A stretch of 64,000 bases of DNA, from positions 65,673 to 129,672 of the forward strand of contig NW_008705583.1 of the NCBI RefSeq assembly GCF_000186865.1, written 5' to 3'. Below the pieces are notes generated by a model. The model saw only the letters and a program-made list of their open reading frames with translations, searched no databases and was not told where the DNA came from. The position numbers were made by a program, and so were the translations under genes. The stretch comes from Aureococcus anophagefferens (lineage: Eukaryota; Sar; Pelagophyceae; Pelagomonadales; Pelagomonadaceae). Shown here one piece after another: positions 1-59,841 of this stretch (position 1 is the first letter of the stretch; each line of letters begins with the position of its first letter).

Positions 1-1615
1 TGGTTCAGCAGGTGCAGCGGCAGGATCGCCATGATGTCGATCATGCCCCACTGGCTCATGTAGCGCCGCGAGATCGCGAGGCCGTCGTAGACCCACATGC
101 TGTAGAACTCGTCGTAGTACGCGATGAAGTGCTGGAGGATGAAGTCGAGGCCGAAGATGACGTCCGCGAGCGTGTTCGCCAGCGTGAGCCCCACGGACCG
201 CGACCCCGAGCCCATGACCCCGACCTCGTAGGGCGTGATGACCGCGCAGTAGACGAGCGCGACGATCGTGACGACGTCCCAGCGCTGCACGTAGAGGTTC
301 GTCGGCATGAGCGTCGCGCGGTGGAGGCCCCGGCCCTCGACGACGCGCTTCGGCGTCATCGCGCAGCAGTAGGACCGCGGGGCGTTGCGCAGGTGCTCGA
401 CCTTGGCGTGGACGAGCGCGACGGACGCCATCTCCTCCCGCAGGTCCATCTCGTTCTCGTGGATCGTCACCAGGAGGTGGGGGCTACTCTTCTTGCCGAC
501 GTTGCGCACGGGCGCGCCCTCCTCGCGCAACGCGCCGTACTGCTTGCGCACGCGGACCTCCGCCTGCGCCTCGCGGTGCTTCGCGGGGTCGAGCTGCGCG
601 CGCCGCTGCACGCCGACGCCCCCGCGCCGCAACGGCCGCACCGTCTTCTGGAGCTGGGAGCTCAGGCGCCCCAACAAGCTCTTGCGCTTCTTCTTGGTCG
701 TGGGGTGGCAGAGGACGCACTCGTTCCGCGACAGGACCTGGGCAGCAAAAGAGAGCGAAATTCCCAACTTCAAAGGCTCATATCTCGGCCGGTTTCCACT
801 CGTTTTGGCTGATTTTTGGACGAGCGATCATCTCTCGGAACGGTCTCGAAGCGTGGATGCTTTTTTCGGAACGCGCGCGCGCGGAACACTCATGTTGAAG
901 CGAAGTTGAATCACCCTTTTGCTGCCCGCGACAGGACGTGCGGCCGCTTGTAGTGCCGCGCGGCCGCGACCTTCCGGCACAAATTCTCGCCGTCGATGGT
1001 GACCTCGCCGATGACGAAGTCCAACACGCGGTCCGTGACCTGGAGCTTGAGGTCCGCGACGGACTCGCCCATCTCGAGGCGGATCTCGAAGTGGCTGTTG
1101 TAGAGGGGATTCGGGCCGTCGCACCGCGCCTCGGACCGGCCGATCTCGCCGCCGTCGTAGACGCAGGAGATGAACGTGTTGTTACTGAGGTAGAGCTGCT
1201 CGGCGCCGCGGATGTGGACCCAGAACGCGCCGTTCTTGAGCATGGTCGACGTGCCCATCTTCTGGAGCATGCGCGGCTTCCCGCCCGGAGAGGAGAACGG
1301 CGCGAACGGCGGCGACGCGGCCGCGGCCGGCTCCGGCGGCGCGCGCCCGGCGAACTGCGCCCGCCGCTCGCCCTCCTTGCGGTCCTCGGCGCCGGTCGTC
1401 TCCGCCTTGGGCAAACCGAGGGGCTCGAGCGTCCGCGGCCGCGCGGGCGACTCGCCGCCGTCGTAGTACGCCGCGCCCCCTTCCGGGGACGACGACCGGC
1501 TCGACCCCTGGACGGCGCCGTTGTCGCCCGCCGCGACGGCGTCGCCGAGCTCCGAGAGCTCGCCGCCGTCCTGGGGCTCCTTGCTGAGCACCGGCAGCAC
1601 GCGCGGGCCGCGCAT
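1..1615 (-). CDS. C2-domain voltage-gated cation (K+) channel, EAG/HCN-like, 3' part off the window
   Basis: The gene reads leftward and runs off the window edge; at least 471 residues are visible. Residues about 120-225 resemble a C2 sandwich (NPLYNSHFEIRLEM, then LQVTDRVLDFVIGEVTI). After an introner intron at 738-937, a basic linker leads to channel segments: S1 around VALVYCAVITPYEV, S2 around DVIFGLDFILQHFIAYYDE, and S3 around SQWGMIDIMAILPLH. This S1-S3 pattern is that of the EAG/cyclic-nucleotide-gated superfamily; the S4, pore and any nucleotide-binding domain lie outside. Splicing as described gives KRPH followed by VLSRNECVLCHP without a frame change. The ATG at 1615 was chosen; an upstream in-frame ATG at 1855 would add 80 mostly Arg/Gly/Ala residues. 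Subunit selectivity cannot be judged without the pore. Confidence 0.72.
738..927 (+). mobile_element. Introner element, family B (intron of the channel gene)
   Basis: A 190 bp element with terminal inverted repeats CTGGGCAGCAAAAG and CTTTTGCTGCCC, flanked by a 10 bp direct duplication GCGACAGGAC (728-737 and 928-937). Read on the minus strand, the strand of the host gene, the duplication begins GT and acts as the 5' splice site, while the element end CTGCCCAG supplies the 3' AG. The resulting 200 bp intron (738-937) contains an in-frame stop, and its removal rebuilds the pre-insertion sequence exactly. The element is antisense relative to the host gene, opposite to the copy at 59397. Confidence 0.9.
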
Positions 1616-1938
1616 GGCCGGGCCGGGGTGTCGCCGCCGCGCGGCCCGCCGCCGCCGGCCGCGGGGACGCGCCCGGAGGCCGAAACGGGCGCGACGCCTG
1701 GCGACCCGGGGTGCGCCCGAGCCGGCGCCTCGAGCTGACGGGGTTCCGGGGGCAGCCGAAGTCGAACCCCAGACCGACTCTAAGCGCTGAGAGTTTTTCT
1801 GAGATGATACTTGAGTATATAGCCGATGCTGCTCGACCTCGGCAAGGGCAAGCATTCGGCGAGTCACCTTCCCCTTGGCTCGAGGTCAGTGCTCTTCAGC
1901 CGCTCGGCACGTCGCCTTGCCGGCACGAGCTCGCGCCG
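1616..1938. promoter_or_regulatory. Shared intergenic region between divergent genes
   Basis: 323 bp separate the channel ATG (1615, minus) from the SET-domain ATG (1939, plus). The middle (about 1780-1860) is clearly less GC-rich than its surroundings and contains ACTTGAGTATATAG, the only TATA-like stretch here. I see no RNA gene. It is likely a bidirectional promoter; this is inferred from position and composition only. Confidence 0.4.
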
Positions 1939-3240
1939 ATGCTGCGGACGCCGCGCCGCTGGCTGCCCGGCAGCAGCGCCGTGGTGACGTCGGAGTTCGT
2001 CGCGTGGCTGCGCGCCGGCGGCGCGTCCTTCGACAAGCTCGCCATCAAGCACACGGCCCTGGGGCGCGGCGTCGTCGCCACGGCGGCCTACGAGCCCGGC
2101 GAGACCCTGCTCAGTGTCCCGGAGGCGCTCCTCCTCACGGTCGACAAAGCGTCGCGGCGCGCCGACGTCGCGGCGTCGCTCGGCGCCGCGCGCGCGCGCG
2201 GCGTCGACGCGAACGGAGGGAACCTCGCGCTCGCGCTCTTCCTCGCGGGCGACCGCTCCGAGGCGTGGCGGCCCTACCGCAACGTCATCTCGCGGTCCGT
2301 GAGCCACCTGCCCTGCTTCTGGCCCACGGCCGACGAGGCGCTCCTCGCCGGGTCGCCGCTCGGCGAGGACGTCGTCCGGCGCCGCGACGAGATCCGCCGC
2401 GACTGCCGGTCGCTCGGCTTGACGGCCGTCGAGGACCGCCAGGCCTTCGCCTTCGCCGAGGCCCAGGTGCTGAGCCGGGCCTTCGCCTTCAACGGCACGC
2501 GCGCGATGGTGCCCTTCGCGGACCTCATGAACACCGCGCGGCACCACGAGCGCCACGTCGACTTCGCCTTCGAGCGCGGCGCGTTCGTCATGCGCGCGGT
2601 GCGCCGCGGCGCGGCGGGCGAGCCCGTCACCGACTCCTACGGCCCCAAGTCCAACGCGCGCTACCTGCTGAACTACGGCTTCGCCATGGCCGACAACCGC
2701 GACGAGGCCGGCCGGCTGCTCGACGACGCCGCGCTCGACGTCGCGCTGCTCGTCGACGCGGGCGCCAAGTCTTCGGCCTGGATGCCGCCGGGCGACGACG
2801 GCGACGCGCCGAAGCTGCGCATCCGCCTGAACGGCGACGACGACGGCGACTTTTCGGCCGCGCTGTCCGCGTACCGCGTGTCCGTCGCGACGCCGTCCGA
2901 GTTCGAGATGTTGGAAACGGGCCACCTGCGGCCGAAGCGCGCGCAGGCGGCCTTCGACGGGTTGCCCCGGCCCCACCTCCAGGCGCGGGCCGTCGCGGCG
3001 GGCCTCGCGACGGCGCCGTTCGTGTCCGAGGGCAACGAGCGCGCGGCGCTCCGCGCGCTGCGGTCCGCGGCGCTCGCGGCGGCGGACGCGCTCGCGCCCC
3101 ACGACCCGGCGCCCGACGACCCGCCGAACCGCGCCCACGCGCGCCTCTACCTCCGGGGGCAGCGCGCCGCGCTCGAGGCCGCGGCGGCGACGGCCGCGGC
3201 GCGCGAGGCGCGCATCCCCGCCGAGGCGGCCTCGGGGTGA
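1939..3240 (+). CDS. SET-domain protein methyltransferase, SETD3/RuBisCO-LSMT type
   Basis: 433 residues. The order of motifs follows the SETD3/LSMT class, whose members methylate lysine or histidine side chains of non-histone proteins: GRGVVATAAYEPGETLLSVP near the start of the SET domain, then LALALFLAGD and WRPYRNV in the iSET insert, then AMVPFADLMNT, and the signature SYGPKSNARYLLNYGF near residue 245. The usual NH after the DLL motif is here NT, so the pseudoknot asparagine is kept but the histidine is not. A C-terminal helical, alanine-rich part corresponds to the substrate-binding domain. No targeting peptide is evident, so the substrate compartment is unknown. The gene converges on the VOC gene with only 32 bp between stops. 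Confidence 0.82.
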   Translation: MLRTPRRWLPGSSAVVTSEFVAWLRAGGASFDKLAIKHTALGRGVVATAAYEPGETLLSVPEALLLTVDKASRRADVAASLGAARARGVDANGGNLALALFLAGDRSEAWRPYRNVISRSVSHLPCFWPTADEALLAGSPLGEDVVRRRDEIRRDCRSLGLTAVEDRQAFAFAEAQVLSRAFAFNGTRAMVPFADLMNTARHHERHVDFAFERGAFVMRAVRRGAAGEPVTDSYGPKSNARYLLNYGFAMADNRDEAGRLLDDAALDVALLVDAGAKSSAWMPPGDDGDAPKLRIRLNGDDDGDFSAALSAYRVSVATPSEFEMLETGHLRPKRAQAAFDGLPRPHLQARAVAAGLATAPFVSEGNERAALRALRSAALAAADALAPHDPAPDDPPNRAHARLYLRGQRAALEAAAATAAAREARIPAEAASG

Positions 3241-3272
3241 CACCTAACACGACCGCGGCCAGTATCACCATG

Positions 3273-3845
3273 TTACCAGTCGGGCTCCATGGGCGCGTCG
3301 AGCGTCGCCTGCCGCCGCAGGAGCTCCACGAGGACGCCGTCCGCGTCCCGGACGAACGCGAGCTCGTAGACCTCCTGGCCGATGATCTGCTGGCGCGGCG
3401 CGAGCGCGAGGCCCAGGGACCGCTCGAAGAGGCGCTCCGAGTCGTCGTTGAGGCGCCGCAGAAAGTCGCCGAGGTCGTCGCAGAGGTGGCCGACGTCGAG
3501 CGCGACGTGGTTGAGGCCGACGTGCGCCGGTGCGAGGCCGTCGGCCGCGCGGCCCGCGTCCACGTAGTCCGGCACCTCGACGAGCTCGAGGCGCGCGGCG
3601 CCCTCGGCGGACCGCAGCCACGCGCAGCGCGCGGCGCCGCTCTTGAAGCGCCGCTCCTCGTCGAGGCCCAGCAGCGAGTAGAACTGGAGCGACCGCTCGA
3701 TGTCCCGCGTGCGCACGGCGCTGTGGTGGAGCCGCGCGCCCGCCGCCGCGAGCGGCGGCGGCGCGAGCGCGCGCGTCGCTCCGAGGACCAGCGCCGCGAT
3801 GAATGGTGCGCGCCGCAACGGCGCGCGAGGGGGGTGCGCGGGCAT
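3273..3845 (-). CDS. VOC (glyoxalase/bleomycin-resistance fold) protein with organelle-type leader
   Basis: 190 residues. One vicinal-oxygen-chelate module begins at ARLHHSAVRTRDIERSLQFY and continues through LNHVALDVGHLCDDLGDFL to VRDADGVLVELL, giving the two beta-alpha-beta-beta-beta halves with metal-ligand candidates His (LHHSAV), Glu (LELVEV), His (LNHVAL) and Glu (VLVELL). The N-terminus (MPAHPPRAPLRRAPFIAALVLGATRALAPPP, described here only in part) has a basic stretch, a hydrophobic core and an ALAP motif, suggesting plastid or secretory targeting. The ATG at 3845 is the first true ATG; upstream codons in the frame are TTG. The substrate cannot be told from the sequence; glyoxalase I-like activity is only one possibility. 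Confidence 0.75.
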   Translation of the reverse strand: MPAHPPRAPLRRAPFIAALVLGATRALAPPPLAAAGARLHHSAVRTRDIERSLQFYSLLGLDEERRFKSGAARCAWLRSAEGAARLELVEVPDYVDAGRAADGLAPAHVGLNHVALDVGHLCDDLGDFLRRLNDDSERLFERSLGLALAPRQQIIGQEVYELAFVRDADGVLVELLRRQATLDAPMEPDW

Positions 3846-4054
3846 CGTCGCGCTATCGACGGGCCTTTGGCGACGCTCACGGCCAACTACCGCTCTCAGT
3901 TCTACTGGATCGAGGTCGTCGAGGTCTTCGGACGCCTCACGCACTACTGGTCTCACCATAAGACTTGTTCGAGTAAACTTCAATCAAGCATTGGTTGATG
4001 TTCAAACTTGGCGGGGCAGCGCCCCCTGTCGTGGCATGGAGCGCGCGCCGGGAG

Positions 4055-4140
4055 AGGCCAGCCCAGCAGGCCGAGTGCTAGGATAGGCCAGCCCAGCACA
4101 CGCCAGACCGAGTGCTTGGGTAGGCCAGCCCAGCGCACGC
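4055..4140. repeat. Short imperfect tandem repeat upstream of the gene at 4145
   Basis: Three units, each starting AGGCCAGCCCAGC, follow one another, the first two with the tail CCGAGTGCT. The unit length drifts (30 and 37 bp, then a partial unit). It ends 5 bp before the downstream ATG and so lies in the 5' leader or core promoter. Confidence 0.75.
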
Positions 4141-4144
4141 GACG

Positions 4145-5119
4145 ATGGGGGCCGCGGCGCTCGTGCGCTGCGCCGACGACGACATGATTCTGTCCAACGA
4201 CCACGTGCTCGCGCGGACCCTGGACCAAGAGGCGAAGAAGCTCCTGCACCAGTCCTTCGTGGGGACGCTCAACGGGACCATGGCCGTCACCTACGCCATC
4301 GGCGAGGTGCTCCCGCAGCCGCCGCCCTTTGTGGCGGAAAAGCGGCGCGAGACGTTCGGCGCCGACGCGCCCGTGCTCTGCTTCCTCCGCGCCGCGTGCG
4401 CGCTGCCGGCGATGGGCCTCGACGGAGAGCCCATGTACTGCGCCGTCGACCTCTGCGGCGGCGCCCTGCGGTGCTTCCTCCTCTCGCCGACGAAGCCCGA
4501 GCTCGGCGTCGTCGTCCTCTACCTCGACGAGGCGACGATGACGCTCGCCGGCGGCGACGAGACGTACGAGCCGGGGCAGCCGCCCGCGATCGTCGCCGTG
4601 CTCGAGTCGCGCTGCCCGCGCGTCGCCGAGCCCGTCGTCGCGGAGCCGGCGCTCGCGGCGGCCGTCGCCGTCGGCGCGGCGCCGGCGCTCGCGGATCGAC
4701 CCGTCGCGCGCCGCGTCGACGCGCCGGCGCGCGCCGCGCCGCCGACCGCGGCCGCGGCCGCGCCGCTGCGCGCGGGCGACGCGTTCGAGGGCGTCGAGAA
4801 GCACCCCATGCTCGGCGACTGCCCGATCAAGGTCACCGTCTGCCCGGTCAGCGGCGGCGGCTGCCCGCGGGACTACCAAAAGGAGATCGTCGCGTATCGA
4901 GCCGCCGTCCGCTTCGAGGCGCTCTTCTCCGCGGACGTGGCGAAGAAGCGGGGGCGGCGCTACTCGCTCGCGCCCTGCGCGCCGGACCCCGAGGGCGACG
5001 ACCCGGCCGGCGGCCTGCTGCTCCTCGCGCACGACCGGCGGGAGTGCATCCGCGCGACCGTCGACGCCGCGGGCATCGTCGCCGCCGGGCGCTTCGAGCT
5101 CGCGCGCGTGGCCGCCTAA
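4145..5119 (+). CDS. Unknown conserved-looking protein
   Basis: 324 residues, not recognised. The N-terminal half (about 1-160) is a mixed alpha/beta segment with a cysteine-rich strand region (PMYCAVDLCGGALRCFLLSP), the middle (160-220) is a proline/alanine linker, and the C-terminal part (225-324) begins EGVEKHPMLGDCPIKVTVCP and ends in a basic strand-rich region. No signal peptide or membrane segment is seen. Coding is supported by a complete ATG-to-TAA frame and by the strong change to linker-like codons in the middle. The stop is close to the stop of the convergent gene at 5125. Confidence 0.6.
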   Translation: MGAAALVRCADDDMILSNDHVLARTLDQEAKKLLHQSFVGTLNGTMAVTYAIGEVLPQPPPFVAEKRRETFGADAPVLCFLRAACALPAMGLDGEPMYCAVDLCGGALRCFLLSPTKPELGVVVLYLDEATMTLAGGDETYEPGQPPAIVAVLESRCPRVAEPVVAEPALAAAVAVGAAPALADRPVARRVDAPARAAPPTAAAAAPLRAGDAFEGVEKHPMLGDCPIKVTVCPVSGGGCPRDYQKEIVAYRAAVRFEALFSADVAKKRGRRYSLAPCAPDPEGDDPAGGLLLLAHDRRECIRATVDAAGIVAAGRFELARVAA

Positions 5120-5124
5120 TAGTG

Positions 5125-7230: not shown

Positions 7231-7243
7231 CCGCCCGCCCCGT

Positions 7244-8125: not shown

Positions 8126-11100
8126 ATGGGAAAGAAAGCCGCGGATCAACCGCCGCCGCCGCCGCCGCTCGGCACGGTGCACCACGTCGACGGCGACGGC
8201 GACGGCACGCTCAAGATCCACATCACGCGGGGCCGGCGCCTCGCCGCCATGGACCGCTGGACGAGCGCCTCGGACCCCTACGTCAACGTCTACTACGGCG
8301 AGACGCTCGTGGGCAAGACGGGCGTCGTCAAGCACACGACGAACCCCGTCTGGCGCGACGGTCTGGTCCACTGCGCGACGCACGGCCCGCCGTGCCGGAA
8401 GCCGCACAAGAAGGTCACGCTCGAGCTCTTCGACGAGGACGCGGGCACGCGCGACGACGCCCTGGGCCGCGTCGTCGTCGACGTCGGCCACCTCGGCGGC
8501 GCCCTCGAGCGGCGCCTGGCCATCCCGAAGAAGTGGTACGACGTCGAGGCGCCGTCGCAGTTGGGGAGCCGCCGGGACTGGGGCCAGGTGGAGCTGAGCG
8601 TGGACTACGAGGACGGCGGCGACGTCGGCGGCGGCGGCGGCTTCCTCGACGGCGACGTGCGGTCCCTGCGGCTCCTGGGCACCCTCTTCGACGAGTGCGA
8701 CGCGGATCGCACGGGCCGGCTCGACAGGGACGAGTTCCGGCGTTTGTACGCGAAGCTCAAGGACTACGAGGCCGCGCACGCCCACGGCGGCGAAGCCGTC
8801 GGCGGCGGCGACCCGGCGCACGCGCTCCACCTGTCCATGAAAGCCGTCGACGCCGACGGCGACGGCGCCGTGTCCTTCGAGGAGCTCCGGAAGGCCGCGG
8901 AGGCCGTCGCGCGGAACGCCCTGCCGTCGGGCGTCGACGTCGTCGTCCGCGGCGCGCGCAACCTCGCCAACGTCGCGGAGCCCCGCGGCGCCGGCTGCAC
9001 GTCGGCGTCGCCGGCGTCGTCGAGCCCCTTCGCGGTCGTGTCCGTCGACGGGCGCCACCTCGGCCAGTCGAAGCCCCAGCTCGACAGCTGCGACCCGACC
9101 TGGGACTTCAAGGTCGCGCTGTCGCGGCCGAAGGACGTCTTCCGGGGCGACCACGGCATGCGCGGCGAGGTCGCGTCCGTCGAACTCTTCCACTACCGGA
9201 AGAAGCTCTCGCCCGCCCCGCTGGGGCGCGTCGACGTCGACGTCGCCTCCGAGTACCTCCTGGCCAAGGGCCTCGACGGCGCGCCGCGGACGTCGCGGCG
9301 CTGGCACCGCGTCGCGGCCGCCGCGGGCTGCGGCGACGCGCGCGGCGAGGTCGACGTCGAGGTCGTCTTCCTGCCGCCGGCCGTCGAGAAGAGCGACGCC
9401 GGCACCGCCGGCGGCGCCGAGGACCAGGGCGACGAGTCCTTCGACGACGACTGGGCCTTCTGCCGGGGGCCCGCGAAGCTCCGCTTCGAGCGCGGCGACG
9501 GCGCCGGCGCCGCGGACGCGCCCTTCCCGGCGCTGGGCGCCGCGTTCCCCTGGCTCGCGTTCTGCTGCGTCGACTCGCGGGACCGCGACGTGCCCCTCGG
9601 CGCCGACGACACCGTGGGCCCCGCGACGCGCGGCCCGGGCCGCGACCGGCGTGGAACTCGACCGCCGGTTCGGGGGGTCCCCACCAAACTTCTCGAGCTC
9701 GGTCACGTCGACGTCGATTCGGCTGATGTTTGGACGGATCGACCGTTCTCGTCGAGTTCTCGAAGCACGGTCGAAGAGCTCGCGTCGAAACGTTCGCATA
9801 CGCGCACATTGAAGTCGGGTCGAAGATTTGAGTTCCGCGCAGGCCGCGACCGGTGGCTCGTGCTCGGCCCGCACGCGCGCGTGCCCCACGCGGACCGGTC
9901 GCCCTACCTCCGCTACAGCGTCCGCGCCTGGGGCGGCGCCGACGCCTGCGCGAAGGCCCTCGAAAAACCGTTTCTTCCCGCGTCTTCCTTCGCCTCTTCG
10001 CGGGCGAACCCACGAGCTCCGTAGGGACTGCGCCGTCTCGGCGCACTGGGCCGACACGTTCGTCTGCGGCGACCGCGCGCGCCGCGACCGGGTTCTGGAG
10101 CTGGAGACGAAGCTGCACGGCGTCGTCGAGCTCCAGTTCGCCGACGACGTCGAGCTCTACGCCTGGTGGAAGCACCTGAGCAAGGTCCACGACCGCACGC
10201 TGCTCCTCGACGCGCCCGCGGACCCGAAGGCGCAGAAGTTCCTGCCCGAGCACGCGCGGCCGACCGTCGTCGGCCCCCGCGGCGGTGCCGCCGGCGGCGA
10301 CGACGACTTCGCGTCGACCATGGCGCGGCGCGACGGCGCGACCTGGGTCGTGGCCCAGAAGGCCGCGAAGCGGGTCCTCGAGCGGCTCACGCGGCCGCCG
10401 CGCGTCGTCGTCGAGCCCGACGCGCTCGGGCCCCGCGTCTTCGCCTACCGCGCCTTCGGCGGCGCGGGACCGCAGGGCGACGTCGCGCCCTACTACCGCA
10501 CGGACGCGCGCGTGCCGACGCGGCGCGGCGCGGCCGTCGCCGTCGCGACGTGGGCGCCCGTCGAAAAGGCCGCGCACCGCCCGACGATCGTCTACTGCAG
10601 CGGCACGAACTCGAGCGGCCGTGCCGACGCCATCTCGTCCGGCGCGCTCGCCGTCGCCCTCGAGCTGCGGGCGGCCCTCGTCGCCTTCGACTTCGTCGGG
10701 TCCGGCGGCTCGGACGACGGCGTGACGTCGTTCGGCTGGTGGGAGCGCTACGACGTCGCCGCCGTCGTGGAGCACGCGCGGCGCGAGCACCCGGGCTCGC
10801 GCGTCGTCGTCTGGGGCGGCGCGTCGTCGGGGGCCGTCGCCGCGCTGTTGTGCGCGTCGCGGTTGGACCCGTCCGTCGAGGGCCTCGTGCTCGACTCCGC
10901 GCCCGCGCGGCTCCGGGACCACGTGCTCGAGGTGCTCAAGGACGCGCTCAAGCCCGACGCGCCCTACCGGGAGCAGCTCGTGCAGGAGATCGCGGGCTTC
11001 GTCGACGAGCGGCTCAAGCGGCGCGCGGACTTTCGCCTCGACGACGTCGACCCCGCCAAGGAGTGCGGCAACCGCCTCTTCAAGGACAAGCCCGTGCTCG

Positions 11101-32544: not shown

Positions 32545-34213
32545 ATGGCGCGTTTCTGTCTAGTCATACTCGCTTGCGGCCGTGCCTTCGCGCCCGCGGC
32601 TCGACCGGGAGCGCTGCGTCGCGCTCCCGAGGCGTGTGCGCCGCGCGCGCTCCCCGCCGGCGACGCCGCCGAGTTCGCCACGCTCGTCGCCGAGGCCCTC
32701 GAGCGGAAAGACCAGATCGAGCTCTCCGTGAAGCGCGGCGCGGGCGACGCGCAGATCGCGTCCCTGTCGGGCCGCGCCGTGGACATCAAGAAGAAGCGCG
32801 TGCTCCAGCTCAACTACAAGCGGCGGGGCGCGTGCGACGTCGCGCGGAATTTCGGCGCCGCGGCCGCGCGCGGCGCGCGCGGCGCCGCGGCCGGCGGCGC
32901 CGCGGCCGACGGCCTCGCGCCCAAGGGCGCCTCCGCCCGCCGCGCCGTCGCCCTGGCGCTCGCCGGCGCCTGCGACGAGGCCCGCGCGACGATCCTCGCG
33001 GCGGACGCGACGACGACGCTCCGCCTCGGGCGCGCGGGCCTCGACGCGACGCGCGCGGCGGCGGCGGCGCGGCCGGCGGCGGCGGCGCCCCACGACCGCG
33101 CGAAGCGCCGCGCCATCTCGCCGGCGGCGCCCTTCCTCGCGGCGCTGAACGTGACGAACGCGGCCGGCGGCGCGCGGCCCGGCCGCGAGCGGAAGCTCCG
33201 GCAGATCTTCCGCTTCGCGGAGCTCCTGGACCACGCCGTGCGGCGGGCCGACGTCGGCGCCGCGCCGCGCGTCGTCGACATGGGCTGCGGCAAGGGCTAC
33301 CTCACCTTCGCCGCGCGCGAGCTCCTCGCGGGGAGGTTCGGGAGCGCGAGAGTCGAGGGCGTCGAGGCGCGACGGTCGCTCGTCGACGCGTCGAACCGCG
33401 CGGCGGCGTCCCTCGGCCACGGCGACTCCCTGACGTTTCGCGAGGGCTGGATCGGGCCCCGCGGCGCCTTCGACGTCCTCCTCGCGCTCCACGCGTGCGA
33501 CACGGCGACGGACGACGCGCTCCACGCGGCCGTCGTCGGCGGCGCGGCCGTCGTCCTCGCGGCGCCGTGCTGCCACAAGGAGCTCCGGCCCCAGCTCGAC
33601 GCGCGCGTCGCGAAAATCCGGGCGGGCGGCGGCGGCCCCGGGGACCTCGCGCTCGCGGCCGTCGCGGGGCGCTGTGTGGAATTCAACCACTGGTTTGGGT
33701 GGTCCTGACCAAACTTTGAAATTCTCGAGCTCGGTCACATCGAAGTCGATTCGGCTGATTTTTGGACGGATCGATTGCTCTCGTCGAGTTCTCGAAGCAC
33801 GGCCGAAGAGCTTGCGTCGAAACTGTCGCATATGCGCACATTGAAGTCGGGTTGAAGATTCGAATTCCACGCAGGCGGGGCACGGCGCGCTCGCGGACCG
33901 CCACGCGGAGGCGGTCACGGACGCGCTCCGCTGCCTCGCGCTCCGGCTCCACGGCTTCGACGACGCGCGCATCATCGAGTGGATCTCCCTCGAGCACACG
34001 GCGAAGAACACGATGATCGTCGCGACGCGGGACCGGCGCGCGGCGCGCGACGGCGCCCGCGCGGACGACCTCCGCGCCGAGCTCCGCGCGCTCGCGGCGC
34101 ACCACGGCGTCGCGACGCAGCGGCTCTGCGCGCTCCTCGGCGAGGACCTCGGCGGCGGCGCGCCGCCGGCCCCCGCGCGCGCCAAGGGGCGCATGCCCGC
34201 GCTGGACCCGTAA
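32545..34213 (+). CDS. SAM-dependent methyltransferase (GSTCD/bacterial-type) with plastid-type leader
   Basis: Exons 32545-33663 and 33875-34213 give 485 residues. The leader MARFCLVILACGRAFAPAAR has a signal-like core and an AFAP motif. The catalytic part shows VVDMGCGKGYLTFAARELL (motif I), VEGVEARRSLVDASNRAA, FDVLLALHACDTATDDALHA and VVLAAPCCHKELRPQLDA. Removing the introner gives AVAGHGALADRHAEAVTDAL and FISLEH-like IEWISLEHTAKNTMIVATRD, which is exactly the C-terminal pattern of this methyltransferase family (bacterial proteins and the methyltransferase part of animal GSTCD). This independently confirms the intron ends. Substrate unknown. Start at 32545; an ATG at 32530 in frame would add five residues. 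Confidence 0.85.
33672..33874 (+). mobile_element. Introner element, family A (intron of the GSTCD-type methyltransferase)
   Basis: 203 bp from CTGTGTGGAATTC to GAATTCCACGCAG, inside an imperfect 8 bp duplication (GCGGGGCG at 33664-33671, GCGGGGCA at 33875-33882). The intron is 33664-33874 (211 bp) with GC donor in the duplication and CAG acceptor from the element. A GT at 33674 would put the downstream exon in the wrong frame, so the GC donor is strongly favoured here. Confidence 0.92.
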
Positions 34214-43460: not shown

Positions 43461-44614
43461 CTACTTCTTCTTCCCGAAGAGGGGCGTGCCGACGCCGACG
43501 GCCTTCTCGGGGTCCGCGAGGGCCTTGAGGTCCGCGAGCTTGGCGGCGCAGTCCGCGACGTCCATGTCCTCGAGGGCGTCGAAGAGGGAGCCCTTGTCGT
43601 CGGCGGAGTAGGCGACGACGGGGTCCAGCGTCCAGGCCTTGAGGTCGACGCCGAGGTCGAGGACCTGGGCGCCGAACGCGTCCTCGGCCGGGTTCGTCTC
43701 GAGCCAGTTCATCTTCTCCGCGAGGCCCTCGAAGGGCGACGCGGACGCGTGGACGCCGTTGTCGCCCGTGTTCGGCTCGCCCGCGAGGCCCAGGCTCTCC
43801 CACTGGGAGAAGATGAGGCCCCGGATGGAGTCCGCGGGCGCCGCGGCCGGGTCCGTCGGTCCGAGCAGCTTGCCGCGGAAGTCGGCCCACTTGAGCGTCG
43901 CCGCGTCCCACTCGACGGCGAAGTAGTGGATGGAGCCGCCGGGCACGGTGAAGCGGTCGCGCATGGACATGTAGAAGGCGTTGAAGGTGTAGGTCGCCGT
44001 GTCGCCCTTCATGAGCTTGCCGCAGTAGAAGCCGCCGCCGAGCTTGATGATGTCGCCCGCGCCCTTGGCCTTCCCCCAGGCCTCGTCCATCTCCGCGCCG
44101 GACAACCCCAAATTCTTGCAGGCGTCGATGGCCGTCATGGCGCGGCCGTCGGCGAGCACGTCGCTCCACTCCTCGCCGAAGAACTCCTTGAACGTCGCCT
44201 CGGGCACCGCGAGCTCCGCGGGCGGCGTGATCGTCGCCTTCGACGCGATGGCGTAGTAGTGCTGGTCCACGAGCTTCTTGCTGTCGATGTCCTCGGACCT
44301 ACCAAGTGCGACGGGGTCGGATTTCTTCACATCTGCAGGCGACATTCACGCGAAAAAACACTCCCGTCGCTCGACGCTGCCTCGGACGCGATGTCGCCCT
44401 CGCTCAGGATCGACAGGCCCGCGCCCTCGAGCTTCTCGCGCACGAGGTCGATGGTCGGCGCCGTCACGGCATGGGGCTTGACGAAGACGAAGGCGCTGTT
44501 CTTCGCGGCCTCGAGCTCGCTGCCGCCGCGGATCTTGGGCGCGCGGAGGCGGTGGGCCGCCGGCGCGAAGGCCGACGCCGACGCGAGGAGGACGAGCGTG
44601 CTGAGAGCGGCCAT
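43461..44614 (-). CDS. Plastid-targeted nucleoside-diphosphate-kinase-like protein
   Basis: Exons 44614-44388 and 44298-43461 give 354 residues. MAALSTLVLLASASAFAPAA is a textbook stramenopile plastid presequence with the ASAFAP motif. The enzyme part starts SAFVFVKPHAVTAPTIDLVR and, after splicing, continues SEDIDSKKLVDQHYYAIASK, matching the first NDK strand/helix and the later HY motif. Near the C-terminus NGVHASASPFEGLAEKMNWL corresponds to the NDK active-site region around the phosphorylated histidine (canonical NxxHGSDS), with Ser-Asp replaced. A long insertion (about 105-230) separates these parts. Whether it still transfers phosphate between nucleotides is uncertain. The 89 bp GT-AG intron is flanked by an exact 8 bp duplication. 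Confidence 0.78.
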
Positions 44615-50031: not shown

Positions 50032-52541
50032 ATGGTCAACACGCCGCGCCAGAAGGCCTACGCCATGGGGGGCAAGCGGCATTCGCACGACCACGAGGGC
50101 ATCGGCGTGCAGCAGTCGAGCGTCGGCGCCCTCATCGGCAAGAGCGACGCGGCGATGAAGAAGCGCCTGGGCATCAGCGACGCCGACGAGGCGCGCCGGA
50201 CCGTCGAGACTTTGGCGGCCTGCGGCGGCGTGAGCGCGCTCGCGGCGGCCTGCGGGTCGAGCGTCGGCGACTTTGGGTCCGGCCTCTGGACGGGCGACGA
50301 CGTCGCGCGCGCGTGCGGCGCCGTGCTGGAAGCGAACGGCAGGGCCGCGCCGAGCCGCGGCGCGCTCGAGTTCCTCTTCCGGGCCGCGCGCACGGGCGGC
50401 GCCCACGCCGGGTCCCGCGCCGCGGCGACGCCCCTCGACGGCCTCGTGCTGGCCCGGGCCTTCCGGGCCGCGGCCGCGCCGGCCGTCGTCCGCGCGCTCG
50501 AAAACGCGTTCGACGCGAAGTTCCCGGGCGGCGCCGCGCCGGCGCCGGCGCTCGGCGCCCTCGTCAACGGCGCCATGCCGCCGGCGTTCCTCGACTGCTT
50601 CCGCGTCGAGGGCGGCGCCGTGTCGCGCGAGGCCTGGGTCGACGGCCACGTGGACCACTGCCGGGGCGTCCGCGGCTTCCCGGACGCGCCCGGCGACTAC
50701 GACGAGCTGCTCGCGGCCGCGTGGCACGCGGCGCCGCCGCCGCCGCCGCGCGCCGTAGTCAAGGGCCCGGCGGGCACGTCCCTCGCCGCGGCGCTCGGCG
50801 CCGCGCGGCCCGCCGCGGCCGGGGGCCCGAAGCCGCTCTCGGCCGCGGTCCGCGACGCCAAAGCCGCCAGGGACGGCCTCGAGCCCCGCGGCGCCGCGGC
50901 CCACGTCGCCGCCGGCGCGCCGCCCCACACGTCCCTCAAGCGGAACGTCGTCCTCTTCTCCGCCGTACCAGGCGCGAGCGTCAAAGACGCGCTCGCGCCG
51001 CCCGACGACGCGTCTGGGAGGGCGCCGCCGCGGCCGCGCGCGCGCGCGCTCGCCGTCGACGTCGAGGTGACTTTGGACGCCATGCGCCTGGCGCTGACGC
51101 AGGGCACCGTCGAGTCGGGCCTGGCGGTCTTGGCGGCCCTCAAGCGCCGCTGCGCGGCGCATGCCCGGGGGCTCGCGCTCGGCGACTTCCGCGCGGCCGT
51201 CGCGGCCGTCTTCGCGGGCCGGAGCCGGCCGCCGGACGCGTCGCTCCGCGTCCTCTTCGACGCGCTCTCCGCGGCGCCGCCGGGCGCCCACCTCAGCGAC
51301 GCGCGCGTCGTCGCGCCGGCGGCCCTCGCGGACGCGCTCCGCGCGGACAAGCGGCCCGCGCGGCCGCGCGCGGCGCTCGCGGACGCCGCGCTCGCGGCCC
51401 TCGGCGGGCCGGCGAGCGTCGGCGCGCTCCTGGCGAACTACGCGGCGTCGAAGCACCCCCTGGTCCTCGCGCGGGCGCTGCCCGCGCCAAAAGCCGCGGA
51501 CCTCTTCCGCGAGTCGCTCGCGGCCGCGGCGGCGCTCGACGCGCGCGCGGACGTGTCGCGGCGCGCGTTCCTCGACGCCTGCGCGGACCTGTCCTACTGC
51601 TGCGGCGACGGGCCCGACGGCGACGCCAAGTATGCGTTGCGCCTCGGACCGCCCTGCGGCGCGGCGACGGCGGCCCCGGCGCCGCGACGGCGGCTCGCGG
51701 TGTGCGTCACGGGCCGCGACGGCGAACGGTCGATCGCCTACGTCGACGACGACGGCGACGCGGATTTCCCGGACGAGCCCTGGACGGAGGCGCGCCTCTT
51801 CCAGGCGCTGGGCGCGCGGCTGTGTGGATTCCAACCACTGGTTTGGGTGGTCCTGACCAAACTTGAGAATTCTCTAGCTCGGTCACATCGAAGTCGATTC
51901 GGCTGATTTTTGGACGAATCGATTGCTCTTGTCAAGTTCTCGAAGCACAGTGAAAGAGTCTGGTCCAAATAGTTCAATTACGCGCACATTGAAGTTGGGT
52001 TGAAGATTTGGAATCCACACAGGCGCGCGGGGCGTCTTCGCGGCGTCCGCGCGGCTCGCGGGGCCGGGCGAGGCGGACGCGTGGGCCGCGGCCGCGGCGC
52101 GCGCCGCGGGCGCCGCGGGCGCGTCCAAGGCCGAGGGCAAGCTCGCGCGCCACCCGGAGCTCTACCACAGCGGCGCGCCTTCGAGCGTCCTTTCTTACGA
52201 CGGACGCGTCCCTTCTTTTTCCGCGACGGACGCGTCCTTTTTTTTACGACGGACTCACATCCCTTGGTTCCTGCGCAGGCACGCAGGTCCACATCGGCGA
52301 CGACGGCGGGCCCGCGGCCGAGGGCGTCGCGACGCGCGAGAAGCGCAAGGTCTGGCGCAAGCCCGCGCCGGCGGCCGCGCGGACCCGCGACTTCAGCGGC
52401 GTGTCCCTGCGCCACGGGCCGGACCTGTCCCTGTCGTCGCTGACGCACGACCCCGTGTCGCCGCGGCTCCGCCCCGCGGCGCAGACGGCCCACACGGGCC
52501 TCCACACGAGCTCCTGGTCCATCGGCGACGGCGGCTGCTGA
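50032..52541 (+). CDS. Calcyphosin/EF-hand-like repeat protein, possibly axonemal
   Basis: Exons 50032-51811, 52023-52172 and 52279-52541 give 730 residues. Both introns have GC-AG ends; the first is an introner. At least two repeats resemble degenerate EF-hand modules of calcyphosin-type proteins: AFLDCFRVEGGAVSREAWVD with YDELLAAAWHAAP, and ADVSRRAFLDACADLSYCCG with DGDAKYALRLG. Calcium ligands are mostly lost. The N-terminus (GGKRHSHDHEGIGVQQSSVG) and the C-terminus (RTRDFSGVSLRHGPDLSLSS, THTGLH-like end) look disordered. Similar proteins occur in flagellar proteomes, so an axonemal role is conceivable, but this is inference. Confidence 0.62.
51820..52022 (+). mobile_element. Introner element, family A (intron 1 of the calcyphosin-like gene)
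   Basis: 203 bp from CTGTGTGGATTCCAA to TTGGAATCCACACAG, the best-preserved inverted ends of the family (15 bp each, perfect). It is flanked by an exact 8 bp duplication GCGCGCGG (51812-51819 and 52023-52030). The intron is 51812-52022 (211 bp), GC-AG, and its removal joins LGARG in frame. Confidence 0.93.
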
Positions 52542-52558
52542 CTGACACCCCCCCCCAC

Positions 52559-55199: not shown

Positions 55200-56195
55200 A
55201 TGGAGGCGCTCATGTGCGTGTCCAGCGAGCATTCGCTCTCCGATTTCATGAGCAGCGGCTTGTTCTGCGAGGTCGATCCCGCGCGTAAATTGACCTTCGA
55301 GACCGTCGACGTCTTCACGGACGAGAGGTTCAAGGGCGGCAACCCGCTGGCCGTCGTCTTCGGCGCCGAGGGCTGCAGCACGGAGACGCTGCAGCGCATC
55401 GCGCGCGAGTTCAACTACGCCGAGATCGCGTTCGTGCTGCCGCCGGAGGATCCGACGAAGACCGCGCGCGTGCGCATCTTCACGCCGCTGGAGGAGTACC
55501 CCTTCGCCGGCCACCCGAACGTCGGCACGGCCTGCGTGCTCGCGCGGCGCGGCGTCGCGTTCGGCCGCCCCGTCGGCGACGCGCTCGTCTTCGAGGAGGC
55601 CGCGGGCGACGTCTCCGTCGAGATCGCGCGCAACGGCAACGGCCAGGTCGCCGGGTCGACGATCGCCGCGCCGGAGCCCTTCGCCGCGGGCCGGACCTTC
55701 GAGCCCGCGGACGTCGCGGCCTGCCTGGGGCTGCCCGCGGACGCCGTCGACGCGTCGCTCCACGCGCCCCTGGTCGCGAGCGTCGGGCTGCCCTTTGTGT
55801 TCGTGCGGCTCTCGACGCTCTACGCGCTCAGGTCCGCGACGCCGGACGTCGCCGCGTGGCGGGCGGCCCTCGCGGGCACGAACGGCATGGTCCACGCCTA
55901 CGCCAAGGTCGGCGACAACTCGTACCGCGCGCGCAACTTCTGCCCGCTCGAGGACGCGGCCGAGGACGCGGCGACGGGCTCCGCGAACGCGGCGCTCCTG
56001 GGGCTGCTCGCGACGTGCGAGCCGGGCTTCCCCGACGAGGGCACCGTGTCCATCCTCGTCGTGCAGGGCGTCGAGATGGGCCGGCCGTCGTCCGTCTTCG
56101 CGCACTGCGACCGGTCCAAGGGCGAGACCACGGCCATCCGCGTCGGCGGCGACGTCGTCGGGCCCGTCTTCTCCGGCGAGATCAACCTAGGCTAG
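55200..56195 (+). CDS. PhzF-family isomerase/epimerase-like protein
   Basis: 331 residues. FETVDVFTDERFKGGNPLAV is the classic PhzF opening; FNYAEIAFVLPP carries the catalytic glutamate, RIFTPLEEYPFAGHPNVGTA the GHP motif, and the second half repeats the fold with ARNFCPLEDAAEDAATGSAN and ALLGLL. PhzF proteins have a diaminopimelate-epimerase-like fold; most eukaryotic members have unknown small-molecule substrates. The first 28 residues before KLTFET are extra and not clearly a targeting signal. The gene is convergent with the acyltransferase (11 bp between stops). Confidence 0.88.
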   Translation: MEALMCVSSEHSLSDFMSSGLFCEVDPARKLTFETVDVFTDERFKGGNPLAVVFGAEGCSTETLQRIAREFNYAEIAFVLPPEDPTKTARVRIFTPLEEYPFAGHPNVGTACVLARRGVAFGRPVGDALVFEEAAGDVSVEIARNGNGQVAGSTIAAPEPFAAGRTFEPADVAACLGLPADAVDASLHAPLVASVGLPFVFVRLSTLYALRSATPDVAAWRAALAGTNGMVHAYAKVGDNSYRARNFCPLEDAAEDAATGSANAALLGLLATCEPGFPDEGTVSILVVQGVEMGRPSSVFAHCDRSKGETTAIRVGGDVVGPVFSGEINLG

Positions 56196-56206
56196 CGCGC
56201 GGGCGT

Positions 56207-58126
56207 TTACGCGAGGTCCGCGCCGCGCCGCGCGAAGCGCGCGGAGTTCGCGCGGACGTAGTCGCAGAACGCGGCGCAGTCCAGGAGCGGGTCGCCGGCG
56301 CCCGAGCTCGTCGCGGCGATGAAGGCGTCGCGCTCCTCGTCGGCGGGGACGCGCGCGTTCGCCTCCGGGTCGAGCGCGAGGTCCGCGCGCGACCGCGGGA
56401 CGAGGCCCGTGCCGTCCGCGTCGAGAAGCCCGAAGACGAGCTCGAGCGCGCCCGACGCGCCGGACCCGACGCCGCCGGCCTCGAGGAGCGCGACGCCGAC
56501 GAGGAACGCGAAGAAGTCGACGGAATCCGCGTCCTTGCGCAGCAGGTTGAACAACGCGCGCGCGTCGTCCGCGCCGCCGCCGTCGGCGTCGTCGATCTCC
56601 GCGGAGTCGCCCCGCAGGGCCGCGCGGAACTGGGCCAGCGTCAGCGACCCGTCCTTCTCGTCGTCGGCCGACGCGAAGCGCTTCAGCGCGTCCGCGGCCG
56701 CGTGGCGCTCCGCCGCGGGCCCCAGCAGCCGCCGGAGCGCCGTGAGCTGGACGAGCGTCTTGTGCGGCGGCTCGCCCAGGTCCCGCGCGGTCATGTTGAG
56801 CCACATGTCGGCCCAGGAGTGGTCCGTCACGGGGCACCGCAGCGCCCGCGCCATGTCGTCGCGCGTGTTCCGCGCGAAGAGCGCCGGGTCCGCGCGCTCC
56901 GCCGCGTCCGGGACGCGCGTGGGCAGGAACTCGAGCCGCAGCCGGTTCCAGGGCTGGAGCATCATGCGCAGGCTCAGCTCGCCGAACTGGGGCCCCGCCG
57001 TCGTCCACGACGGGTCCAGCCCCAGGCCGCAGCGCACCGCGAAGGGGAACCGCGCGACGCACGGCTGCACGGCCGCGCCCGGCCCAAAGGCCCCGGGCTT
57101 GAACGCGATGAGCGCGCGGCCGTTCAACGTCGTCCCCTCGGGGAAGACGAGCACGGGCGGCCAGGCGCCGGGGGACGTGCGCGTGGTCCGGTGCGCGATC
57201 GCGTCGACGACGACCGCTCGGCTCGTCGCGTCCGACCGGTCGAGCCACAGAAGCTGGTAGAGCTTGCCCACGGGCCCGAGCGCCGGCAGGGCGGCGAAGT
57301 CGGACGCCGTCACGGGCGTCGCGCCGCCCGTGGCGATGAGGAGCGCGAGCGGCTCGATCATCGACAGGTGGTTGCAGACGACGACGCGCGCCGCGGGATC
57401 GACGGCGCCCGCCACCTCCACGCGCCAGAAGCCCATGCCCGCGAGCACGGCGCGCACGCACCACATGACCGGCGCGCCGACGGCGCGCCGCCAGCGCGGC
57501 ATGCGCTCCGTGTCCGGCAGCACGCGCGAGCGGTCCTCCGCGGCCGCGCGGAGCGGCAAAGCCTCGGGGCTCCGCGCCGCGCCGGCGAAGCGGAGCCGCC
57601 GCCGCTCCGCGACACGCGCGAGCAGGCTCTCGGGCCGCGTGCCGTCCCAGCCCGCCGTCGCGAGGTTCGCGAAGACGCACGCGCCGGCGACGGCCGCGAC
57701 GAGTATCGACAGCCGCGCGGGCAGGACCCAGGGCGCGAGGACCGCCATCTTCAGCCGCTCCGCCGCCGTCACGCGCCACGTCGCGTTGACCCAGGGGTTC
57801 GCGACGGACGAGTGGGCGTCGCGCACCTCCGAGAAGACCTCGAGCGACGCGCCGGACTTGGACCGGCGGACGCCGGGCGTCGCCGGCGTCGCGGCCGCCG
57901 CGAGGTCGACGCCGGCGGCGCCGGCGCAGCCGTCGCCGAGGCAGCCGGGCACGGTCGCGGCCTCCGTCGACGACACGAGCAGCGCCTCGAGGTCCTCGTT
58001 GCGGCCCCGCGTGAAGAGGCCGCAGAGCAGCCAGGAGAGGAAGGACGCGACCACCCAGTAGCACAGCGTGCCGGAGACGCCAAAGGAGGCGACGCTCGCG
58101 TAGCAGAGCGCGATCGCCTCGATCAT
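56207..58126 (-). CDS. LPCAT-like lysophospholipid acyltransferase with EF-hand region
   Basis: 639 residues. TM helices near the start (GVSGTLCYWVVASFLSWLLC) and at about 130-160 (LPARLSILVAAVAGACVFAN) precede a PlsC-type domain: RVVVCNHLSMIEPLALLIAT, PVGKLYQLLWLDRSDATSR, LVFPEGTTLNGRALIAFKPG. The catalytic box reads HLSMIE (His253, Glu258), so the usual HxxxxD aspartate is glutamate. The EGTT motif and FKPGAF are as in LPCAT1/2 and plant LPEAT. The C-terminal third is EF-hand-like (FASADDEKDGSLTLAQFRAA, ALELVFGLLDADGTGLV), as in animal LPCAT1/2. It probably re-acylates lysophospholipids in the ER; the effect of the Asp-to-Glu change is unknown. ATG at 58126; the codon at 58171 is GTG. Confidence 0.82.
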   Translation of the reverse strand: MIEAIALCYASVASFGVSGTLCYWVVASFLSWLLCGLFTRGRNEDLEALLVSSTEAATVPGCLGDGCAGAAGVDLAAAATPATPGVRRSKSGASLEVFSEVRDAHSSVANPWVNATWRVTAAERLKMAVLAPWVLPARLSILVAAVAGACVFANLATAGWDGTRPESLLARVAERRRLRFAGAARSPEALPLRAAAEDRSRVLPDTERMPRWRRAVGAPVMWCVRAVLAGMGFWRVEVAGAVDPAARVVVCNHLSMIEPLALLIATGGATPVTASDFAALPALGPVGKLYQLLWLDRSDATSRAVVVDAIAHRTTRTSPGAWPPVLVFPEGTTLNGRALIAFKPGAFGPGAAVQPCVARFPFAVRCGLGLDPSWTTAGPQFGELSLRMMLQPWNRLRLEFLPTRVPDAAERADPALFARNTRDDMARALRCPVTDHSWADMWLNMTARDLGEPPHKTLVQLTALRRLLGPAAERHAAADALKRFASADDEKDGSLTLAQFRAALRGDSAEIDDADGGGADDARALFNLLRKDADSVDFFAFLVGVALLEAGGVGSGASGALELVFGLLDADGTGLVPRSRADLALDPEANARVPADEERDAFIAATSSGAGDPLLDCAAFCDYVRANSARFARRGADLA

Positions 58127-58273
58127 CGTTGACGGCGCGGCGGCGCGGCGGCGTGCGAGGGCGGGGAACACTCAAACTGTGCTCGAGGCCATGTCCACCT
58201 CGCGCCTAAATGACGTCAACTAAGACGTCAACTACATCGATGGTGCCGAACACGCTGCCCCTCAGCTCTCACG

Positions 58274-59841
58274 ATGGAAGCCCGCCGCGCCGCCGAGGGC
58301 CTCCTCGGCGTGTCGCACCTCTGCACGAAGAAGGAGATCGCCAAGGCCTACCGAAAAAAGGCGCTGCTCGCGCACCCCGACAAGGGCGGCAGCGAGGCCC
58401 ATTTCACGGCGCTCACCGACGCCTACGCGCTGCTCGTCGCCGCGCGCGACGACGCGGCGGCGTCGCGCGAGGAGGAGGAGGCGCCCGACGCGCTCCTGCG
58501 GTACCGCGTCTCGGGCAAGAACGGCGCCCTCGTCCGCGCGGGCGTCGCGCTCGACACGGCGGTCGTCGGGACGCTCGCGCGCGGCTCGCTCGCGACGGTC
58601 TTCGCCGCCGACGGCCGCGCGGCGACGGCGACGGCGCCCGGCGGCAAGGTGCGCGTGCGGCTCGCCTTCCCGCTCGCGGGCTGGGTCACGGCGACGGCCG
58701 TCCAGGAGGAGGGCGACTTCCTGCGGAACGAGCCCGCGACCCTAAAAGCCGCGATCCGCCGCGCGGGCCGCCGGGCGCCGCGGCAGTTCGACTCCTTCAA
58801 GAGTTACGTGGCGGCGGGCAGGCCCGCGGCGCCGCGGCCGCCGCCGCCGCCCGCCGAGGCGCCGCGCGCCGCGGCGGCGGAAACGCGGGGCGACGGCAGC
58901 TTCTCGTCGTTCGTCGCCGCGCGGCAGTCCGGGAAAGGGGCGGCGCCGAGTGCGGGCTCCCGGGCCGGCGCGGCGGCGACGCCGAGCTGGGGTTCTGCCT
59001 CGAGTTCCGGCTCTCCCGCCGCCGCCGCCGCGAGCGAGGCGAGGCGGATCGCCGATGGCGTCTCGTACCACCCGGACGTCCTCTCGGCCGCGGCCGCCGC
59101 GGCGCTCTTCGCCGAGCTCGACGCGGGCGTCCCCTGGGCCGTGCACGCCGACGACTTTGGCGCCCAGGGCCGGCCGACCTACTACTGCGGCGACGACGAC
59201 TGCGTCTTCAGCTTCGTCGGCTGCCGCCACGAGCCGCGGCCCTGGCCGGCGGCCCTCGACGCGCTCCGCCCGTCGCTCGAAGCGGCCCTCGGCCTGCCGC
59301 CGCGGTCGCTGACGGCCTGCCTCCTCAACAGGTACGCCGCGGGCGCGGGCCACATCCCCTTCCACAGCGACGAGGTCCGCGCGCACGGCTTCAAGCAGGG
59401 CAGGAAAAGAGAGCGAAATTCCCAACTTCAAAGGCTCCCATCTCGGCCGTTTTCCACTCGTTTCGGCTGACTTTTGGACGAGCGATCATCTCTTGGAACG
59501 GCCTCGAAGCGTGGATGCTTTTTCCGGAACGCGCGCGCGCGGAACACTCACGTTGAAGCGACGTTGAATCACCCTTTTCCTGCCCAGGCTTCAAGCGCAT
59601 CGTCGCGTCGCTCTCGCTCGGCGGGCCGCGGACCTTCCGGCTCCGGCGCAAGGCGACGGGGGACGCCGTCGCCGACGTCGCGCTCGCGTCCGGCAGCGCG
59701 CTCGTCATGACGGGCGACGCCCAGGACGACTACGAGCACGAGCTCCCGCTCCGCGGCGGCGACGCGGCGCGGATCAGCTGCACGTTCCGCTCCATCGTGC
59801 CGGGCTTCGAGCGCGCCTGGGAGCACATCCACGATAATTAG
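58274..59841 (+). CDS. J-domain/AlkB (ALKBH2/3-like) dioxygenase fusion
   Basis: Exons 58274-59387 and 59588-59841 give 455 residues. The J domain (1-60) has CTKKEIAKAYRKKALLAHPD with the HPD motif. A strand-rich region (about 75-160) and a Pro/Ala/Ser linker follow. The AlkB domain starts VSYHPDVLSAAAAAALFAEL and carries LNRYAAGAGHIPFHSDEVRA (HxD iron ligands), then after splicing GFKRIVASLSLGGPRTFRLR, VMTGDAQDDYEHELPL (distal His) and ARISCTFRSI (2-oxoglutarate-binding Arg). These are the Fe(II)/2-oxoglutarate residues of ALKBH2/3, which reverse alkylation of bases in DNA or RNA. The J domain would recruit Hsp70; why the two are joined is unknown. Confidence 0.85.
59397..59587 (+). mobile_element. 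Introner element, family B (intron of the J/AlkB gene)
   Basis: 191 bp element with ends GGGCAGGAAAAG and CTTTTCCTGCCCAG, flanked by a 9 bp duplication GCTTCAAGC (59388-59396 and 59588-59596). The intron is 59388-59587 (200 bp, GC-AG). It interrupts the conserved AlkB motif between HG and FKRIVASLSL. Without splicing the frame stops inside the element. It is in sense orientation relative to the host gene. Confidence 0.92.

Follow-up and report, generated by a model that had tools for sequence, protein, structure and literature searches.

Introners are a leading explanation of mass intron gain, and their families are told apart by sequence grouping and by their end repeats. Introner elements of Aureococcus anophagefferens and Micromonas pusilla were reportedly described by Huff, Zilberman and Roy in 2016. 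A stretch of 64,000 nucleotides of A. anophagefferens DNA (assembly GCF_000186865.1, contig NW_008705583.1, positions 65,673 to 129,672; here called the window, 73% GC and part of contig C23) raises the question of what such end repeats record. It holds five copies of two introner families, A and B, which carry different ends and share a 19-base core. A sequence-only reading of the window had proposed a single lineage whose terminal repeats were exchanged or diverged while the body was kept, and had suggested that different transposases may act on this common cargo. That interpretation is partly supported. We found one lineage with two sets of ends, and in the less diverged family B the ends reshuffle as matched pairs apart from the body. 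Taken jointly, the results make it probable that A and B are sister families of introners that resemble miniature inverted-repeat transposable elements (MITEs), that they descend from one ancestor, that their arms are corrected against each other and that a cut-and-paste transposase making 8-bp duplications moves them.

All five cores lie where the sequence-only reading had placed them (Table 1), and a chance origin of the core is ruled out: at up to two mismatches the 19-mer occurs 3,790 times (1,865 plus 1,925 matches) in the 49.05-Mb genome of 86 contigs, and the reversed pattern does not occur. This core count gives a density of about one element per 13 kb. Our sample consisted of a systematic 200 kb of contig C1, 60 copies from the core list and the 20 best matches to the window copies, and was later widened by 60 stretches from two core-context lists. 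All 167 core hits were picked via the core (at most four mismatches), mostly on contigs 1 and 2, and 36 of them fail the rules for a bounded A or B element. The first set of 105 core hits gave 87 bounded elements (43 A and 44 B). Excluded were L006 for overlap and L112 and L113 as chance matches; repeat fetches of the same stretch were combined, and L178, a locus taken up below, enters no count. Counts based on alignment, namely those of end matching, duplications and donors, refer to 166 of the 167 hits, one poor hit having been dropped.

Both families are real, with consensus lengths of 203 bp (A) and 192 bp (B) and with inverted ends in each. The uniform pair of ends that had been ascribed to each family did not hold. 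The A pair, CTGTGTGG/CCACACAG, is exact in one of the three A copies of the window, the one at 51820. The B pair, CTGGGCAG/CTGCCCAG, mixes two copies, that at 738 being CTGGGCAG..CTGCCCGC and that at 59396 being CAGGGCAG..CTGCCCAG, and is found in none of the 94 sampled B copies.

The core is indeed common to A and B, but to speak of an internal core is too narrow, as similarity spans much of the element length. In a global alignment of the two consensus sequences 123 of 179 aligned bases agree, and BLAST reports 54 bp at 80% (E 3e-8). With the core removed, none of 2000 mononucleotide shuffles attained the A-B score, and a fraction of 0.0005 of 2000 sequences from a dinucleotide model did. 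Similarity exceeds chance before the core, after the core and near the right end; it does not in the stretch just inside the left end or in the middle, and the similarity of the end repeats is weak (p 0.0145 and 0.0335). A control tempers these values: A scored -6.5 against reverse-complemented B, compared with 18.5 for A against B and a shuffled mean of -30.5. The reverse-complement score lies above the shuffles because the elements carry inverted repeats, and part of the A-B similarity lies there. The comparison supports the proposed single lineage, and we conclude that A and B most likely share one ancestor and that body and ends diverged together.

A different history, in which A and B swapped terminal repeats over a shared body and a separate transposase served either type of end, would show up as hybrid copies among the core hits. 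Typing of the 167 hits along four segments gave 93 that were B throughout, 67 that were A throughout and 7 others, so that 160 are uniform along their length. Genome-wide, at up to one mismatch, the A core context occurs 1,364 times and the B core context 1,693 times, whereas the two recombinant contexts have 2 and 4 hits, five of these six being one-base variants of a parent. The sixth is a candidate recombinant core (C20:304818, B-like on the left and A-like on the right), one against 3,057 parental contexts. This mixed core speaks for a swap, as does L087 (85-278), the only hybrid-looking copy among the 167 hits, which is A-like in its left end and body but B-like at its right end and has a target duplication matching at 7 of 8 bases. 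The flanks adjacent to the core have diverged along with the weakly alignable ends, however, and no other body with either end was present in 271 kb of unmasked sequence. We regard such a swap as very unlikely. Ends are rarely if at all exchanged between A and B today, and divergence, as the simplest reading, fits best; of the two processes originally offered, it is the one that stands between the families.

Insertion of both families leaves a clear trace. With ends set by consensus alignment, the flanks match at 7-8 of 8 bases in 139 of 166 copies (62/72 A and 77/94 B). Shifting the right flank by 1, 2, 3, 5 or 8 bases left 0-3 matching copies per family, and pairing flanks of different copies gave 1.5 and 2.0 matches on average. 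Hence both families make 8-bp duplications. Their terminal inverted repeats, duplications of fixed length and lack of coding capacity are those of MITEs, and, as judged from sequence, they are introners, many similar introns lying at unrelated positions in one genome. The predicted intron is one copy of the duplication plus the element, typically 211 bp (A) or 200 bp (B); the first two bases of the duplication form the predicted donor, GC or GT, and the element end forms the predicted acceptor AG. Among the 116 copies whose orientation is fixed by the ends alone, the duplication starts with GC or GT on the gene strand in 113 (70 predicted GC and 43 predicted GT donors; 58/90 GC in the bounded set). 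At other offsets GY was present in 0-11 of 27 A and 1-23 of 89 B copies. We infer that the copies are spliced at the predicted sites. In the A consensus (75-103), TCGATTCG and CGAATCGA lie on either side of the core and form an 8-base inverted repeat about the conserved GCTGATTTTTGGA; in B just the inner portion of the repeat is retained.

The two ends of an element pair along about 14 bases, and we found that paired sites vary together. In B, position 9 matched its partner in 77/93 copies (46.1 expected) and position 11 in 73/93 (48.3 expected). Positions 4, 6, 7, 8, 10, 11 and 12 of A were matched in 57-64 of 70-72 copies (37.4-52.3 expected). This matching was first seen in 87 copies and was then repeated in 44 newly fetched bounded copies. 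Among the 30 B copies of the repeat set, p was 0.0016 at position 9 and 0.0006 at position 11; among the 14 A copies it was 0.012-0.043 at positions 6-8, and position 12 was not significant (0.087). No significant arm matching was observed at B positions 15 and 17. Linkage in B runs across the element: r2 is 0.49 between position 9 and its partner at a distance of 175 bp, 0.46 between position 11 and its own partner, and 0.014 between 9 and 11, which are unlinked. Within the arm of A, the neighbours 7-8 and 8-10 are unlinked (r2 up to 0.04).

On a tree built from the element bodies, the paired B sites change often. Sites 9 and 184 each changed 24 times and sites 11 and 182 changed 19 and 20 times, against an average of 1.71 and a maximum of 13 for 156 body sites; sites 2, 17 and 178 (17-19 changes) also exceed this maximum. 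The matched B copies (n=55) fall into four end haplotypes, CA (19), GA (18), GC (12) and CC (6), and the other 19 of the 74 copies have unmatched ends. These haplotypes are scattered over the body tree almost as if by chance: they need 26 changes, a number that 30 of 300 shuffles equalled or undercut. No body site was significantly associated with B haplotype (lowest p 0.014 in 48 tests); among the body sites themselves, linkage reaches p 2e-12. All four haplotypes are present in a single group of 15 B copies that share linked body alleles. An exchange of ends relative to the body, one of the two options of the sequence-only reading, does seem to have taken place inside B, where it involves matched pairs, but not in A, whose matched ends follow the body.

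Our preferred explanation of the covariation, over descent from several sources with matched ends, is a correction of the arms that would act on the DNA. A and B would be non-autonomous, MITE-like DNA transposons acting as introners, and an inserting element would bring a pre-formed intron made of one duplication copy and the element. In each family the arms would be kept complementary by DNA-level arm-to-arm correction, a step that we infer, either through template switching or through the repair of mismatches once a copy has folded back on itself. For B, such correction would let the paired ends change faster than the body and independently of it. Mobilization would be due to a cut-and-paste transposase that makes 8-bp duplications and is P-element-like or hAT-like. 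In the published portions at our disposal, template switching is described as homogenizing inverted repeat arms in yeast coding DNA (PMC8604942) and is proposed to maintain the stems of RNAs in RNA genes (PMC8794818). The likeness to our case is that paired changes of the arms arise at the DNA level and need no selection on RNA; the difference is that those accounts concern yeast coding DNA and RNA genes, transposons being unmentioned in the portion of PMC8794818 at hand.

The alternative of several sources deserves serious weight, although we hold it to be clearly the less probable one. It states that B derives from at least four to eight elements with near-identical bodies and internally matched ends, the matching being demanded by the transposase, with no fast rewriting of ends. 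That all four B end haplotypes are common agrees with it, as does the poor resolution of the B body tree, in which 2 of 40 inner branches are well supported. The tree nevertheless carries signal, as the end type at position 2 follows it (see below), and the recurrence of the four haplotypes inside the 15-copy group and the 19 unmatched copies are also difficult for this alternative. Changes in both arms would, moreover, still be needed repeatedly.

Besides the hybrid-looking L087, several observations weigh against the explanation as we have set it out. Informative body sites in B are few, and several matched-end sources could mimic the pattern. The fast B sites have only two common alleles, which is not what random mutation followed by correction predicts. 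Linkage also exists inside arms, at A positions 6-7 (r2 0.61 and 0.31), between A position 10 and positions 11 and 12 (0.44-0.50) and at B positions 15-17 (0.56 and 0.36); B positions 15 and 17, which lie innermost in the arm, show almost no match with their partners (0.06 and 0.02). The change counts of body sites are lowered because the tree was built from the body. In A the end haplotype tracks the body tree, needing 12 changes where none of 300 shuffles needed so few, so that the decoupling of ends and body is a result for B. Finally, position 2 is unmatched in B and matched at chance level in A, which implies that correction, if any, spares the outermost bases.

The same data bear on a cause at the RNA level, in which pairing of the intron ends in the pre-mRNA would be selected as an aid to splicing. 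The pairing of the ends and the covariation of paired sites are what such selection would produce, and hairpin introns have been described in Amoebophrya (PMC7789003, in the part available to us). On the transcript strand, however, G-U pairs did not outnumber A-C mismatches, with 11 vs 16 in A and 10 vs 10 in B, small numbers of low power. B has no matched pair at position 2, which adjoins the acceptor AG, and a double mutation at each locus would be hard to square with a body divergence of only some 7% from copy to copy. In RNA consensus folds the covariation terms were small. An RNA stem as the cause of the arm covariation is disfavoured, and we consider it unlikely.

A bolder version of arm correction is that every copying round rewrites the ends: the arms would anneal and be corrected, and matched ends would be drawn from a small combinatorial set. 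We put this forward as speculation that is more probably wrong than right. If it were true, the ends would cease to show the parentage of a copy, the outermost acceptor base being exempt and inherited, and end repeats would be no guide to family history, body and ends having separate genealogies. If the pattern of one lineage with two sets of ends and reshuffled B pairs held genome-wide, reliance on end repeats alone would mislead both the assignment of families and the search for the mobilizing transposase. With thousands of copies, arm-to-arm correction in a transposon would then be open to direct test.

The outermost bases behave differently in the two families. At position 2 the arms match in none of the 94 B copies (24.0 expected) and in 46 of 72 A copies (47.7 expected), with a T,T pair in 45/72. 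The 57 bounded A copies comprise 26 in sense orientation, 20 in antisense orientation and 11 undecided; for the 74 bounded B copies the numbers are 54, 18 and 2. A is usually acceptor-ready at both ends and occurs in both gene orientations, and B is acceptor-ready at one end only. The B end type defined by position 2 requires 8 changes on the body tree (shuffled mean 16.3, minimum 13 of 100), and 12 of the 18 antisense-type copies belong to the 15-copy group. Since B end types largely follow body lineages and have one acceptor end, orientation follows from end type. Hence we conclude that the source lineage largely sets the orientation in B, with the requirement for an acceptor acting as a filter. 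Comparing A, which usually has an acceptor-ready letter at either end, with B, which has one such end, offers a natural experiment on the constraint that splicing places on a transposon end.

The proposal of different transposases on a common cargo gained no support. No autonomous element was detected by end search in the 271 kb of unmasked sequence: all A-end matches lay inside elements, and the four B-end matches outside called elements were both ends of one B copy and two isolated matches. As A and B both have 8-bp duplications and C-N-G termini, a single transposase, or related ones, would be as likely as different ones. Duplications of 8 bp agree with both the P-element and the hAT superfamily and, being common to the two, are not decisive.

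One candidate is a P-element-like transposase that would move the introners, the shared core descending from its transposon. The only match to PF21787 found in the genome (E 1.4e-9) lies at L178 1501-2437 (C25 about 178372-179308), and downstream of it, on the opposite strand, is a unique core-like sequence about as distant from A as from B, the identity being 84% over 68 bp with B and 80% over 54 bp with A. According to the portion of PMC10983969 available to us, members of the P-element/THAP9 superfamily have 8-bp duplications, short terminal repeats and subterminal inverted repeats, which fits; the letters quoted there for the zebrafish ends differ from the A and B ends. The readable part of the locus, in which the stretch before the gene is masked (N), contained neither an A or B end nor a flanking duplication with a convincing inverted repeat, the sequence is single-copy and the match includes three in-frame TAG codons. 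Given the density of introners and the inspection of several transposase loci, the proximity could also be due to chance. The link of this gene to the introners is suggestive only, and we treat the candidate as tentative, with the odds somewhat against it.

For hAT, PF05699 gave four weak matches in the genome, of which three loci were inspected. A hAT gene present at two of these loci was set aside as mobilizer: the flanking-repeat search, which covered its C1 copy, turned up no 8-bp duplication paired with a convincing inverted repeat, and A or B ends of its own were absent from the C1 copy and from the partly masked C13 copy where it could be read. The 5.4-kb stretch with this hAT-like gene is duplicated at 99% (C1 and C13, around L110 and L111) and ends in repeats; elsewhere its flanks hold ordinary A and B copies. 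A Mutator (MULE) mobilizer was rejected, PF10551 having no match at E <= 0.01 in a six-frame search of the genome. A search of the PDB with a transposase piece gave no match. Horizontal spread was also discarded: IMG/VR contigs and GTDB contigs each contain a single exact match to the core, in unrelated sequence that we read as chance, in searches from which records near this genome were possibly left out.

Introners that combine inverted ends with target duplications have been described before, among them those of Aureococcus (PMC9860276, PMC9481584 and PMC7789003, in the parts available), and the portion of the Pelagomonas study at hand treats a length peak of about 210 bp as typical of the A. 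anophagefferens elements (PMC9481584). A and B share with these the making of introns, the inverted ends and the target duplications, and their typical introns measure 200 and 211 bp; by description they may be the same elements. An intron with its donor in the target duplication and its acceptor in the element is one of the architectures listed by Gozashti et al. 2022 (PMC9860276), as far as the available text goes; in the same portion GC donors range from 0 to 50% per family, a range that the 70 of 116 predicted here exceed. The main text of that paper contains no mention of recombination or subfamilies. Unlike the available parts of the published accounts of Aureococcus and Micromonas introners, ours has two families with one body, B ends that are independent of the body and B lineages with an acceptor at one end. 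A search by title and abstract for introners, paired-end covariation and arm homogenization, which most subscription papers lay outside, returned no paper on paired-end behaviour. Introners as a kind are thus already known, and the paired-end behaviour was not found in the literature searched.

The features of the window are collected in Table 1, element borders being set by the 8-bp target duplication.

Table 1. Introner copies of the window and their cores
Feature	Position	Strand	Details
B-family introner	738-929	-	duplication GACAGGAC at 730-737 and 930-937; predicted intron 738-937
Core, B copy at 738	804-822	+	1 mismatch
A-family introner, diverged ends	9647-9842	+	duplication GCCGCGAC exact; predicted intron 9639-9842, 204 bases
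Core, A copy at 9647	9718-9736	+	1 mismatch
A-family introner	33672-33874	+	duplication GCGGGGC(G/A), 7/8; predicted intron 33664-33874
Core, A copy at 33672	33750-33768	+	exact
A-family introner	51820-52022	+	duplication GCGCGCGG exact; predicted intron 51812-52022
Core, A copy at 51820	51898-51916	+	exact
B-family introner in AlkB-like gene	59396-59587	+	duplication GCTTCAAG exact; predicted intron 59388-59587
Core, B copy at 59396	59462-59480	+	1 mismatch

At all five sites at least one frame is open across the joined flanks. For the copy at 738 this is a minus-strand frame, and every unspliced frame contains a stop; the copies at 33672 and 51820 likewise have open frames over the joined flanks and stops in the unspliced frames. 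Open frames are weak evidence of splicing, because several frames on both strands are often open in GC-rich DNA, and the copy at 9647 is a weak case in particular: the length of its predicted intron is divisible by three, and without splicing one frame passes through it with no stop. Of two other spliced peptides submitted to Pfam, one had no match and one gave a match below the Pfam cut-off that ends before the junction. Rfam had no match in the window. For one host protein of the window, ten relatives were listed, among which the single one of named origin belongs to Aureoumbra lagunensis (49% identity), in agreement with a pelagophyte host. The copy at 59396 was more informative, as taking out its predicted intron yields a continuous match to the 2-oxoglutarate (2OG)-Fe(II) oxygenase family PF13532 (E 7.6e-20), which confirms this one junction.

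By eye, the introner-like repeats in 285 kb of sequence (34 kb masked) are A and B and one family of 81 bp only. This third introner-like family is represented at 44299-44379 of the window and at L028 8947-9028, which are 96% identical over 82 bp. The window copy has the ends CAG..TAG on the minus strand and, again by eye, 8-bp duplications CCTCGGAC at 44291-44298 and 44380-44387.

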